From Clostridia bacterium (GTDB lineage: Bacteria > Bacillota > Clostridia > Christensenellales > Pumilibacteraceae), in NCBI GenBank assembly GCA_022791055.1, contig JAAVYI010000005.1, positions 1 to 53,825 on the forward strand: DNA of 53,825 nt, in the 5' to 3' direction. The translations under genes and the position numbers were made by a program. Under the pieces are notes generated by a model. The model was given only the letters and a program-made list of their open reading frames with translations, did no database searches and was not told the DNA's origin. This document shows positions 20,636-35,483 of this stretch, in pieces; the stretch's first letter is position 1; the number at the start of each line of letters is the position of its first letter.

Positions 20636-21472
20636 ATGTATACCTATCAATCCTTACAGCGCGACATCCGCTATTTGGCCTCGTCCGGGTTTGAAACCGG
20701 GTCGGTCGGCAAAAGCGTACTGGGCAACGACCTCTATTACGTTCGCATCGGCACGGGCGAGCGCCGCATCATCGTCACCGGCGGCATTCACGCCCGTGAA
20801 AACGTTTCTTCGTACACCGTCATTCGTATGGCCTACTACGCGTCGGGCAAGAAGTTCGACGGCTCGATCTACTATGTCCCCATGCTCAACCCCGACGGCG
20901 CACTGCTCCGCGAAAAAGGTCCGAGCTACGTCGGCGGCGAGCGCGAGCGCTTTCTCATCGAGACCAACGGCGGGTCGCGCGATTTTTCGCAGTGGAAGGC
21001 CAACATCAACGCCGTCGACCTCAATACCAACTTCGACGCGCGTTGGGGGACGGGAACGCAGAATATTCGACACCCCGCGCCCGCCAACTATATCGGCCCC
21101 GAACCGTTTTCCGAGCCGGAGACGCGCGCGATCGCCGCGTTCACCGTCAAGGTCGGCGCCGCCGTTACGCTCAGCTATCACGCGTTGGGGCAGGAGATAT
21201 ATTGGTATTTTTACCAGCGCAAGCACCTCGAGCGCGACCGCACGCTGGCCGAATATATCGCGCGGCAGCTTACCGGTTATCGACTGGACGGGGCGTACAC
21301 CTCGAGCGCGGGCGGTTACAAAGACTGGTGTATCGCCAAATGCGGTTTGCCGGCGTATACGATCGAACTGGTCGCAAGCGGCAAACATCCGCTGCCGCTG
21401 TCGGCCGCCGACGCCGATTTCGAGCTGAATAAGGATTTGCCGATACTGCTCACGTCTTACGACGGCATATAG
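20636..21472 (+). CDS. M14 family zinc carboxypeptidase (gamma-D-Glu-DAP type)
   Basis: 278 residues from the ATG at 20636. A TTG at 20591 would add 15 residues; neither start has a strong ribosome site, so the start is uncertain. Zinc ligands are GIHARE (His and Glu) and the His of SYHALGQEIYW; the catalytic Glu is in YTIELV; NPDGALL and DLNTNFDARWG are also family marks. Members cleave gamma-D-glutamyl-diaminopimelate bonds in peptidoglycan peptides. No signal peptide is present, so it likely recycles imported wall peptides in the cytosol. Last gene of the walJ operon. The structured element begins right after its stop. Confidence 0.85.
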   Translation: MYTYQSLQRDIRYLASSGFETGSVGKSVLGNDLYYVRIGTGERRIIVTGGIHARENVSSYTVIRMAYYASGKKFDGSIYYVPMLNPDGALLREKGPSYVGGERERFLIETNGGSRDFSQWKANINAVDLNTNFDARWGTGTQNIRHPAPANYIGPEPFSEPETRAIAAFTVKVGAAVTLSYHALGQEIYWYFYQRKHLERDRTLAEYIARQLTGYRLDGAYTSSAGGYKDWCIAKCGLPAYTIELVASGKHPLPLSAADADFELNKDLPILLTSYDGI

Positions 21473-21600
21473 CACGGCGGCGTATACGGTGCCATATACG
21501 GGCTACGTGTGCGACGAAAGCGCAGTCGAGTAGGTCAAACTACACTCCTTTGCTTTCGTCGCACCTGTTGCCCGTCTCTGCCACCGTCTCCGCCGCCGTG
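21473..21600. repeat. Structured covarying element, copy A
   Basis: 128 bases directly after the stop of the M14 gene. Outer arms CACGGCGGCG (21473-21482) and CGCCGCCGTG (21591-21600) pair perfectly. A 13-bp helix joins GTGCGACGAAAGC (21509-21521) to GCTTTCGTCGCAC (21552-21564), and inside it GTAG (21530-21533) pairs with CTAC (21540-21543) around GTCAAA. The copy at 34241-34366 keeps the architecture and the unpaired motifs GCAGTC, GTCRAA, ACTCC and CCTGTTGC, while its helices have other sequences that still pair. RNA or palindromic mobile DNA are both possible, and strand is not determined. Confidence 0.7.
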
Positions 21601-21695
21601 ACCGCTTGCGATACACGCTATGCCGCCTTGACGGATCGACGGTCGTTCTGTCATTAGAGCCAAAGACAAAACCTCATGGAAAGCAGTAAAGACCA
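21601..21695. other. Spacer with no gene seen
   Basis: No open frame or clear signal between the structured element and the first MITE-like repeat. Confidence 0.4.
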
Positions 21696-21786
21696 TTTGT
21701 CATTCCGAGCGGTACGCAAGAATGTACGCAGGCGTATAAAATAATGGATTCGCTGCGCTAGACCATGCTATCGGTGGGGTGACAAA
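21696..21786. repeat. MITE-like palindromic repeat, copy 1
   Basis: Ends TTTGTCATTCCGAGC and GGGGTGACAAA are imperfect inverted repeats. The interior GCAGGCGTATAAAATAATGG, then ATTCGCTGCGCTAGA, is shared with the copies at 21812 and 24212. Confidence 0.75.
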
Positions 21787-21811
21787 AAGTCGGTTATCGC
21801 AATATTGTCTT

Positions 21812-21913
21812 TTTGTCATTTCGAGCGTAGTCGAGTAATGTACGAAGGCGTATAAAATGATTGATTCGCTTCGCTGGATTTCTCCACTCGCTTCGCTCGG
21901 TCGAAATGACAAA
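21812..21913. repeat. MITE-like palindromic repeat, copy 2
   Basis: Perfect terminal inverted repeats TTTGTCATTTCG (21812-21823) and CGAAATGACAAA (21902-21913), with the shared interior gaaggcgtataaaatgattg. Confidence 0.8.
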
Positions 21914-21967
21914 CGGTGAAACGCTAGATGACAAAATGTGTGCTTACTCGTTTCCTTTCGAAGGTTT

Positions 21968-22025: not shown

Positions 22026-22481
22026 ATGGAAGAGGAATTTATGCAACAGGCGATCGACGAGGCCAAAAAGGCGCTCGAAAACGACGACGTGCCTGTCGGC
22101 GCGCTGATCGTCAAGGACGGCCGCGTCATCGCGTCGGCGTACAATCGGCGCGAGGCCGACCGCGACGCCACCGCGCACGCCGAAGTACTGGCGATCCGCG
22201 CCGCCTGTCGGCAGTTGGGGCGGTGGAACTTGAGCGACTGCGAACTGTATGTGACGCTCGAACCGTGCGCCATGTGCGCGGGCGCGATCGTCTATGCCCG
22301 ACTGAAAAAAGTCTATTTCGGCGCTTACGATCTGCGGTTCGGCTGTGCCGGCACCGTGCATAACTTAGCTTGCGATCCCGCGCTCAACCACCGCGCCGAC
22401 GTGGTCGGCGGCGTTATGGAAGAGCCGTGCAAAAAGCTGTTGGTCGATTTTTTCGCCGACAAGCGCAAAAAGAAAAACTGA
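22026..22481 (+). CDS. tadA: tRNA-specific adenosine deaminase
   Basis: 151 residues. TadA deaminates A34 to inosine in tRNA-Arg(ACG). Zinc/active-site motifs are HAEVLAIRAA (His and the proton-shuttle Glu) and EPCAMCAGAIVYARL (two Cys ligands), followed by the substrate-binding GAYDLRFGCAGTVHNL and a C-terminal basic helix. Length is normal. It sits inside a repeat-rich, regulator-rich region but has the GC-rich codon use of housekeeping genes. It converges with the three-gene XRE operon, with the two stops adjacent at 22481/22482. Confidence 0.95.
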   Translation: MEEEFMQQAIDEAKKALENDDVPVGALIVKDGRVIASAYNRREADRDATAHAEVLAIRAACRQLGRWNLSDCELYVTLEPCAMCAGAIVYARLKKVYFGAYDLRFGCAGTVHNLACDPALNHRADVVGGVMEEPCKKLLVDFFADKRKKKN

Positions 22482-24211: not shown

Positions 24212-24308
24212 TTTTGTCATTTCGAGCGCAGTCGAGAAATCTAGCCGCAGGCGTATAGAATAATGGATTCGCTACGCTAGACCCCTCGGCTACGCTCGGG
24301 GTGATAAA
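24212..24308. repeat. MITE-like palindromic repeat, copy 3
   Basis: Starts TTTTGTCATTTCGAGCG, ends CTCGGGGTGATAAA, and shares the interior GCAGGCGTATAGAATAATGG plus ATTCGCTACGCTAGA with the copies at 21696 and 21812. Confidence 0.75.
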
Positions 24309-33229: not shown

Positions 33230-34240
<1,011 letters not shown>

Positions 34241-34370
34241 TTGCGGCGGCGTATAGCGGCGCGCTAAGCCGCTACGTGCAATCAAACGCCGCAGTCCTGT
34301 ACGTCGAAGTACACTCCCGCGCCGTTTGATTGCCTGTTGCGACTTATCGCACCACTCTCCGCCGCCTCAC
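34241..34370. repeat. Structured covarying element, copy B
   Basis: Starts directly after the ilvC stop. GGCGGCG (34245-34251) pairs with CGCCGCC (34360-34366); TAGCGGC (34254-34260) with GCCGCTA (34268-34274); GCAATCAAACG (34278-34288) with CGTTTGATTGC (34323-34333); and inside it TGTAC (34298-34302) with GTACA (34309-34313) around GTCGAA. Compared with copy A the long helix has a different sequence but stays perfectly paired, while GCTACGTG, GCAGTC, ACTCC, CCTGTTGC and CTCCGCCGCC are kept. Confidence 0.7.
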
Positions 34371-34416
34371 CTTGTCCGCATGAAAGGTTGCGGAAAACCG
34401 TTTTCAATGCTTGACG

Positions 34417-34446
34417 ATTCCCACTCTGTATGCGAGTGGGAATTTT
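34417..34446 (+). terminator. Terminator-like hairpin before the DAHP synthase gene
   Basis: ATTCCCACTC (34417-34426) pairs with GAGTGGGAAT (34434-34443), ending in TTTT. A second stem, GGCGGG (34457-34462) with CCCGCC (34471-34476), lies just before AAGGAG (34479-34484). Could end ilvC transcription or act as a leader structure for the next gene. Confidence 0.6.
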
Positions 34447-34493
34447 CAAAACGTAGGGCGGGCGCTTGCTCCCGCCGCAAGGAGTAAAACACT

Positions 34494-35483
34494 ATGATCA
34501 TTATCATGAAGCCGAATGCGGGCGAGAAGGAGATCGAAAACGTCGTCTCGATCGTGCGCGGGAAAGGGCTGGACGTCAATCTTTCGCAAGGCAAGGAAGT
34601 GACCGTCATCGGCGTGATCGGTGACAAGACCAAGCTAGACGGCAGCAACGTCGAGATCGCGCCGGGCGTCGAAAAGGCTGTGCCGCTGACCGAAAGTTAC
34701 AAGTTGTGCAACATCAAATTTCACCCCGAGCCGACGGTGGTGCGCTGCGGCGACGTTCGGATCGGCGGCGGGGCGACAGTCATTGCCGGTCCGTGTGCGG
34801 TCGAAAACGAACAGCAGATGCTCGAGACGGCCCGCGGCGTCAAGGCCGCGGGCGCACATATCTTACGCGGCGGCGCGTACAAGCCGCGCACTTCGCCGTA
34901 CTCGTTCCAAGGCTTAAAAGAAGAGGGCTTAAAGTTGCTTAGAAAGGCGGCGGACGCGGCGCATATGCCGTGCGTGACCGAAGTCATCGACTTCGACAGT
35001 CTCAAAACGGCCTGCCGCTATGTCGATATGCTGCAAATCGGCGCGCGCAACATGCAAAACTTCGAGCTTTTGAAAGAGGCAGGACACGCCGGCGTTCCCG
35101 TCGTGTTAAAGCGCGGCATGTCGGCAACCATCGAGGAGTGGCTGAACGCCGCCGAATATATTCTCGCGTCCGGTTGCCGTGAAGTGGTGCTGTGCGAGCG
35201 CGGGATTCGCACGTTCGAGCGCTCGACGCGCAATACGCTCGACATTGCCGCCGTACCCGTGTTGAAGGCGAAAACGCATTTGCCGGTCATCGTCGACCCG
35301 TCGCACGCGGCCGGGGTGCGGGCGTACATTCCCGCGCTGACGCGGGCGGCTTTGGCGGCCGACGCCGACGGCGTGATGATCGAAGTGCATAATAATCCCG
35401 CTTGCGCGCTGTCCGACGGCGATCAGTCGTTGGATATTGCACAGTTCGCCGACCTTATGGCGTCGATCCCGTGTCTGAAGTAA
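34494..35483 (+). CDS. aroF: 3-deoxy-7-phosphoheptulonate synthase
   Basis: 329 residues, the AroA-I beta (KDO8PS-like) DAHP synthase of Bacillota, first step of aromatic synthesis from PEP and erythrose-4-phosphate. Residues 1-65 form the ferredoxin-like regulatory domain (MIIIMKPNAGEKEIENV...), which mediates feedback control in relatives. The barrel has VIAGPCAVEN, RGGAYKPRTSPYSFQG, EVIDF, LQIGARNMQNFELLKE, VVLKRGMSATIEEWLNAAEYI, CERGIRTFE and PVIVDPSHAAG. All metal and PEP residues expected are present. The start of the next gene overlaps its end by 13 bases. Confidence 0.95.
   Translation: MIIIMKPNAGEKEIENVVSIVRGKGLDVNLSQGKEVTVIGVIGDKTKLDGSNVEIAPGVEKAVPLTESYKLCNIKFHPEPTVVRCGDVRIGGGATVIAGPCAVENEQQMLETARGVKAAGAHILRGGAYKPRTSPYSFQGLKEEGLKLLRKAADAAHMPCVTEVIDFDSLKTACRYVDMLQIGARNMQNFELLKEAGHAGVPVVLKRGMSATIEEWLNAAEYILASGCREVVLCERGIRTFERSTRNTLDIAAVPVLKAKTHLPVIVDPSHAAGVRAYIPALTRAALAADADGVMIEVHNNPACALSDGDQSLDIAQFADLMASIPCLK

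Follow-up and report, generated by a model that had tools for sequence, protein, structure and literature searches.

Integron attC sites are imperfect hairpins of variable sequence that follow a gene's stop codon, and it is their bottom strand that is folded and recognized. In enterobacteria, the 127 bp ERIC (or IRU) and the 168 bp YPAL (or RU-2) are described as mobile repeats, and ERIC is reported to be co-transcribed with its neighbours (PMC2229807). The hairpin family described here, which we call E1, resembles both in size, in its intergenic location and in forming a long stem-loop, as far as that description goes (PMC2229807). It is also like the REP sequences (GTAG/CGTC), which are described as lying near the 3′ end of the upstream ORF and at a variable distance from the downstream one, with termini that often provide the stop codon (PMC3733652). 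The pneumococcal BOX, RUP and SPRITE elements are, like E1, small folded interspersed repeats, and in the account cited here SPRITE elements also lie near gene 3′ ends (PMC3049150).

The window copies and the E1 family

Two copies of E1 lie in the window, by which we mean the whole stretch of 53,825 nt that was analyzed. Copy 1, a hairpin of about 128 nt at 21473..21600, is matched by the covariance model at 21472-21600 on the minus strand with 144.8 bits. Copy 2, at 34241..34367, has the same architecture with other helix sequences and is matched at 34241-34369, again on the minus strand, with 126.7 bits; note that the two copies are themselves two of the three sequences from which the first covariance model was built. 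We refer to the strand of the covariance models as the modelled strand, which in the window is the minus strand, and to the strand of the flanking genes as sense. The initial annotation had placed the copies at 21473-21600 and 34241-34366, with common unpaired motifs, two different but perfectly paired inner helices, and apical stems of GTAG/CTAC in one copy and GTAC/GTAC in the other, all of which a check of the sequence bears out, with copy 2 ending at 34366/7. It had read the fold on the plus strand: the hairpin stands, but the conserved strand is the minus one. Specifically, the minimum free energy of copy 1 is −86.6 kcal/mol on the minus strand against −78.7 kcal/mol on the plus strand, and that of copy 2 is −86.1 against −64.6 kcal/mol, while the z values of the folds relative to dinucleotide shuffles are −9.6 and −10.7 for the minus strands and −9.4 and −5.9 for the plus strands.

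The annotation had also noted that both copies start near a stop codon, and each in fact begins directly 3′ of a TAG. By sequence and gene model, copy 1 abuts the TAG at 21470..21472 (plus strand), which ends a gene at 20636..21472 (plus strand) whose translation looks like an M14-type zinc carboxypeptidase; the next gene, at 22026..22481 (plus strand), presumably encodes a TadA-type deaminase. Copy 2 abuts the TAG at 34238..34240 (plus strand) of a gene at 33233..34240 (plus strand), whose product we take to be the ketol-acid reductoisomerase IlvC, and is followed by a gene at 34494..35483 (plus strand) whose translation looks like a DAHP synthase. Between copy 2 and this last gene, at 34405-34460, there is a hairpin with a short T-run that looks like a terminator by eye. 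Copy 1 also has another interspersed repeat (GTCATTNCGAGCG...) next to it, at 21692-21917 and at 24216, with 17 motif matches in 295 kb of the same genome.

A third copy was found in the window's own genome (G000) by a simple pattern. The model built from the three copies gives 106 matches at E values up to 1 in the 2.17-Mb genome, both strands counted. After fetching the surroundings and keeping the better strand for each place, 121 matches reduce to at least 69 places, which take in short, long and weak copies; some copies may be missed, because 150 of the 342 candidates in this genome were scored. Most copies are about 128 nt long, with a few long (211–214 nt) or short (74 nt). E1 thus has many dispersed copies and is too short to code for a transposase, as is typical of a MITE or small mobile palindromic repeat.

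A second covariance model, built from 44 copies from five genomes, recovers E1 from 47 of 74 genomes of the taxonomic family, representing 13 of its 18 genera. In a sample of 297 genomes from the order, 61 have the element; these are spread over 12 families, some by one weak match. Several copies from other families, inspected by eye, retain the GGAGA/UAUAC of the outer loop and the GTAC of the apical stem and differ in the middle. Because the loops are kept and the stems rewritten, a plain sequence search sees little of E1: a plain pattern run against a named genome collection met one stretch, 'Clostridia bacterium PG1894_211'. Two candidates were discarded along the way. One locus (L004) matched the first pattern, probably by chance, as it is coding sequence by eye and the model does not find it; another (L053, in G043) matched model R1 and not R2, and its sequence is unlike E1.

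The nearest neighbour of a copy is in the same genus for 56 of 60 copies from G000 and for all 43 copies from the genus g18, while the few copies of genera g2 (4), g5 (2) and g12 (2) have their nearest neighbours in the window's own genus or in g18. Mean identity is 0.61 within the own copies, 0.74 within g18 and 0.59 between the two. The pattern fits lineage-specific expansion, most clearly in g18.

Searches of Rfam at the gathering score with the window and 12 further loci gave no matches, and a relaxed threshold gave only seven sub-threshold matches to unrelated families. Nor was E1 met in viral, phage and plasmid collections, where one copy or narrow patterns served as the query and the negatives are therefore weak. 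The titles and abstract openings searched in the literature contained no element of E1's description.

Other repeats occur in or beside E1. A repeat of about 85 nt with three hairpins (GGGCGCGACGCGGCGGCAC...) is nested in five copies (L090:2040-2251, L091:6114-6327, L087:2257-2470, L065:945-1155 and L072:~1987). It has 14 exact sites in G000 and is found on its own or within other hairpins as well, at several sites near contig ends; it is a second structured repeat family. The possibility that this insert belongs to a complete form of E1 was rejected, since it is a separate repeat that occurs elsewhere too. In L209, L190 and L215 (genomes G072, G070 and G073) a piece of about 90 nt (GGGCAACCAAATGTTGCACG...) replaces one arm of the inner helix; the piece has 12 sites in five g18 genomes, and sister species carry ordinary E1 at matching sites. 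At L003:1306-1463, an 83-bp tandem duplication ends in the left arm of an E1 copy.

Fold, covariation and the selected strand

In an alignment of the first three copies that was made without reference to structure, two-sided changes occur at 21 of 46 pairs, compared with 1–3 when the partners are slid and a mean of 7.2 in shuffles. In the 44 copies of the second model, 97.3% of the cells are paired. Two-sided change is seen at 39 of 45 pairs (14–24 for slid partners, a mean of 28.1 for shuffles); doubly changed cells number 453 (48–75 slid, 142 on average in shuffles), values that none of 500 shuffles reaches. These counts lean towards the modelled structure, to which the 44-copy alignment was fitted. 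The shuffles do not correct for relatedness among the copies; the slid control preserves it. Selection on structure, which the initial annotation had proposed, is strongly supported by the sequence comparison: it draws on both sets of two-sided changes and on the strand-specific G-U excess described below. Further copies without covariation had been named as the observation that would tell against the proposal, and the further copies do covary.

Bases in the loops vary little or not at all. Invariant in all 44 rows are A12 G13, T123, T125, A32, C34 A35 G36, C102 G103 and A105. In the outer loop, A12 G13 A14 (44, 44 and 43 of 44) stands opposite T123 A124 T125 (44, 43 and 44), and a second copy of this AGA/TAT motif occupies columns 24-26 and 111-113 (34–42 of 44). 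The inner loop has A32 (A/G)33 C34 A35 G36 opposite C102 G103 (T/C)104 A105. The AG steps thus fall at columns 13, 25 and 36, a spacing of 11–12 that is close to one helical turn.

The two strands of a hairpin can be told apart by their mismatches, as a G-U pair on one strand is an A-C mismatch on the other. On the modelled strand the ratio of G-U to A-C is 233:31 over the 69 own copies, about 7:1; the better strand of each copy was picked by model score, which possibly favours G-U, but the loop motifs that also drive this choice are independent of G-U. The ratio is 201:29 in 62 own copies and 32:2 in the seven of opposite gene orientation, so that the excess goes with the element whatever the direction of the genes. 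In g18 it is 161:25 over 43 copies, i.e., the 45 known there less one near-duplicate and another that has a large insert. Folding energies point the same way: with RNA parameters the modelled strand is lower in 68 of 69 own and 39 of 43 g18 copies, and with DNA parameters in 68 of 69 and 41 of 43, respectively. Because the excess sits on one strand whichever way the copy is oriented, it is the fold of that strand that is selected, and the recognized form would be a single folded strand, either ssDNA or RNA. In most copies this strand is antisense to the flanking genes, which makes a simple role in mRNA less likely.

Gene ends and insertion sites

Genes around the copies were predicted with a home-made codon-usage finder. 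On these predictions, 59 of the 69 own copies lie between co-directional genes with the modelled 3′ end towards the 3′ end of the upstream gene, seven are reversed, with the modelled 3′ end 18–29 nt before a start codon, and three are undecided or divergent. Of the 66 gaps that hold E1, 65 are co-directional, compared with 146 of 170 gaps without it (p = 0.0037); none of the 66 is convergent against 12 of the 170, though convergent gaps are rare in this genome anyway. A predicted gene end lies at most 60 nt away for 55 copies, and 47 of these are placed at −6 to +2 of the stop codon, with peaks at −6/−5 (23 copies) and at −1 (13 copies). For the same 55 copies, the stop codon is inside E1 in 31, shared with it in 14 and before it in 10. 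In g18, 34 of 45 copies have the main orientation and three are predicted between convergent genes, while at least eight of the 45, judged by eye, start just past the T-run of an intrinsic terminator and not at a stop codon. The family and the order supplied 26 further loci; among the 21 inspected, 14 have a gene 3′ end at −16 to +7.

No target motif was found in the flanks of E1 in its own genome; in g18 one flank carries a weak AGCC and the opposite flank is rich in A. We also considered whether the far flank generally repeats the gene end in inverted form and rejected this, since the mean score equals the null and one of the 69 copies stands out. That copy is L091:1999-2126, whose far flank is an 11-bp inverted copy of the end of the neighbouring gene, beyond chance.

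Sites can also be compared between genomes. From G001, a genome of the same genus, twenty stretches (236 kb) were fetched. The two genes flanking E1 are adjacent in G001 for 12 of the 69 copies, and E1 is absent from all 12 gaps. The end of the upstream protein, compared with its G001 counterpart for the 11 of these copies that lie at the end of the upstream gene, falls at the identical residue in seven, within one residue in nine and within four in all 11. G001 contains at most one weak E1 match (one in one search, none in another), so that, judged by this pair alone, E1 may have been lost in G001. Within g18, one site is filled in three of ten genomes, and the other seven lack E1, two of them having other sequence instead. 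The genomes G073 and G074, which are 85–98% identical in aligned stretches, differ at sites where junctions can be read: of two polymorphic sites aligned, one permits a duplication of 2–3 bp (TA or GTA) and the other none, and a third junction (L219) has no target-site duplication.

The L219 copy is present in G074 only: eight sister genomes were aligned and lack E1, and the model finds none at any of nine matching loci, so that by parsimony this is a gain. In the closest relative, G073, the genes at this site overlap (ATGA). In G074, read by eye, the order is upstream gene, a TGA supplied by E1, the hairpin, AAAGGAGG, and an ATG in frame with the old start. A tail of the form TGACA(A)RGGAGG occurs five times in 437 kb of own and g18 sequence, each time 10–11 nt beyond an E1 end (3/3 and 2/2 by source), though these 437 kb were chosen for E1 and give a limited background. 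The sequences downstream of the tail are unrelated by eye, and the tail therefore appears to belong to that E1 subfamily. The window copies are of the commoner kind, which lacks it.

In contrast to such a gain, two or three species have E1 in common at many g18 sites. Nine comparisons between copies that occupy matching sites, not all of them independent, give 64 two-sided paired changes and 20 one-sided changes that keep G-U; 11 changes go towards A-C, and another 21 cells are broken. L154 and L173 form the cleanest pair, with five two-sided changes, one to G-U and none broken. Together, these numbers indicate that the fold is maintained and yet that copies decay. In several of the nine comparisons the copies differ enough in sequence that re-insertion at the same place is a possible alternative.

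Explanations and comparison with known repeats

Many copies, empty sites and an insertion private to one species argue for a mobile element. The initial annotation had named two possibilities, a new structured RNA and a hairpin-type mobile element. The second is well supported by these results; for an RNA product, which is a candidate reading, Rfam gives no gathering-score match. We consider it probable, from sequence comparison, that E1 is a family of non-autonomous mobile hairpins of the MITE/REP kind, likely moving in trans as a folded strand and carrying no enzyme of its own. The selected strand would fold into a long stem, modelled with 45 pairs. A putative recombinase or transposase would grip this stem by the invariant internal loops, which in its outer half follow one another at about one helical turn. 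This enzyme would insert E1 at the 3′ ends of cistrons, where the element would complete or supply the upstream stop; one subfamily would add a Shine–Dalgarno sequence, joined in one case by an ATG in frame. With these signals on board, both neighbours would stay translated and the insertion would be tolerated. A more far-reaching version, which we put forward tentatively, would make E1 the first translation-aware mobile element to be described. Its folded single strand would home to the ends of cistrons and bring stop codon, hairpin, ribosome-binding site and start codon as a set, so that it could enter overlapping co-translated genes and leave both working.

Three enzyme types were considered as movers, and the presence of none tracks E1. 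The Y1 transposase domain (Y1_Tnp) is below the cut-off in the own genome and absent from copy-rich G005 and G021 and from G002, but is present in 17 of 37 genomes searched, including copy-rich G012, G019 and G020. The reverse transcriptase domain (RVT_1) has no matches in G000 and G070–G074 and one match each in copy-rich G005, G012, G021 and G036; possibly a reverse transcriptase was once present and has since been lost. The integron integrase (TIGR02249) is over the cut-off in none of the 74 genomes, and its sub-threshold matches occur in 68 of the 74 and likewise in all 14 control genomes. An autonomous relative was not encountered among the sequences examined.

The lack of a mover among these three types counts against a mobile hairpin, as does the lack of a clear target-site duplication at the three junctions. 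So do the convergent placements predicted in g18 and the own flanks without a target motif. The Shine–Dalgarno tail functions in the sense mRNA, but in those copies it is the other strand whose fold is selected. Once landed, a purely selfish element would have no need of compensatory change in place, as seen at the g18 sites shared between species, although such change could also come from re-insertion, from one copy being copied onto another or from mobility that continues.

Such change at matching sites, e.g., L154/L173, is what would be expected of a cis-acting intercistronic hairpin in mRNA that adjusts the stability of the message or the translational coupling of the two genes it separates, a role described for ERIC copies. 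The co-directional gaps, the many copies at stop codons and the Shine–Dalgarno tail of one subfamily fit this explanation as well. We nevertheless consider it unlikely: outside the seven reversed copies, the sense strand has 201 A-C mismatches and only 29 G-U pairs, the strand opposite the modelled one folds worse in all but one of the own copies, and at least eight of the 45 g18 copies, by eye, are placed just past a terminator. The strand-specific G-U excess and the conserved unpaired motifs could instead reflect a multi-copy gene for a trans-acting non-coding RNA, transcribed from the selected strand. To this we give little credence, because Rfam has no gathering-score match in the window and 12 loci, the copies differ between close species, and the 30 bases on either side have no conserved motif in the own genome and hence no shared promoter there.

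Covariation could also be a matter of mutation mechanics and not of selection, if template switching within the palindrome copied one arm from the other. The inverted gene end at L091:1999 is what copying from a fold-back would give, and L069:3620 is a second, weaker case (p = 0.01). However, the mean score over the 69 copies is 4.33 against 4.37 for the null, the mismatched loops are invariant although copying would heal them, and a 7:1 excess of G-U on one strand is not expected, all of which makes this quite improbable. Least probable of all is a REP-type palindrome mobilized by a Y1 (RAYT) transposase. REPs likewise sit close after stop codons and often supply the stop, as far as they are described (PMC3733652), and Y1_Tnp occurs in some copy-rich genomes. 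This domain is below the cut-off in the own genome and absent from G005, G021 and G002, and E1 measures 128 nt instead of 20–40. The initial annotation had named identity to a known IS200/REP-type palindrome as an observation that would refute its reading; Y1 transposases do not follow E1.

A mobile hairpin of the kind we favour would be well suited to testing how gene ends are read by such an element and how the stop and start signals that insertions carry can make them harmless inside operons. It would also offer a strand-resolved target, rich in covariation, for finding a recombinase that recognizes structure.

How E1 differs from the known systems is specific to each. The bottom strand is the folded and selected one in E1 as in attC, judging by the G-U to A-C ratio and by the lower fold in 68 of 69 copies. 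However, integron integrases are over the cut-off in none of the 74 genomes, and E1 is scattered among resident genes and not arranged in cassette arrays, with orthologous genes existing without it. YPAL has empty and filled sites too, and its targets span or adjoin dyad symmetry, which may be compared with the E1 copies past terminators (PMC2229807). For ERIC and YPAL, the passages cited here mention none of E1's compensated variable stems, fixed loops, selection on one strand and subfamily-specific Shine–Dalgarno tail (PMC2229807). The REP unit is 20–40 bp and common between convergent ORFs, whereas E1 is 128 nt and occupies no convergent gap among 66 in its own genome, though three of 45 g18 copies are predicted in such gaps; its CGTAG lies at an inner loop and not at the foot of the hairpin, where REPs have GTAG or CGTC. 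SPRITE is described as an 18-bp duplex with a U-rich tract, and BOX and RUP as having terminal inverted repeats and target-site duplications (PMC3049150); in E1, one junction of three permits a duplication of 2–3 bp. On sequence grounds E1 would be a MITE/REP-like element of a new variety.
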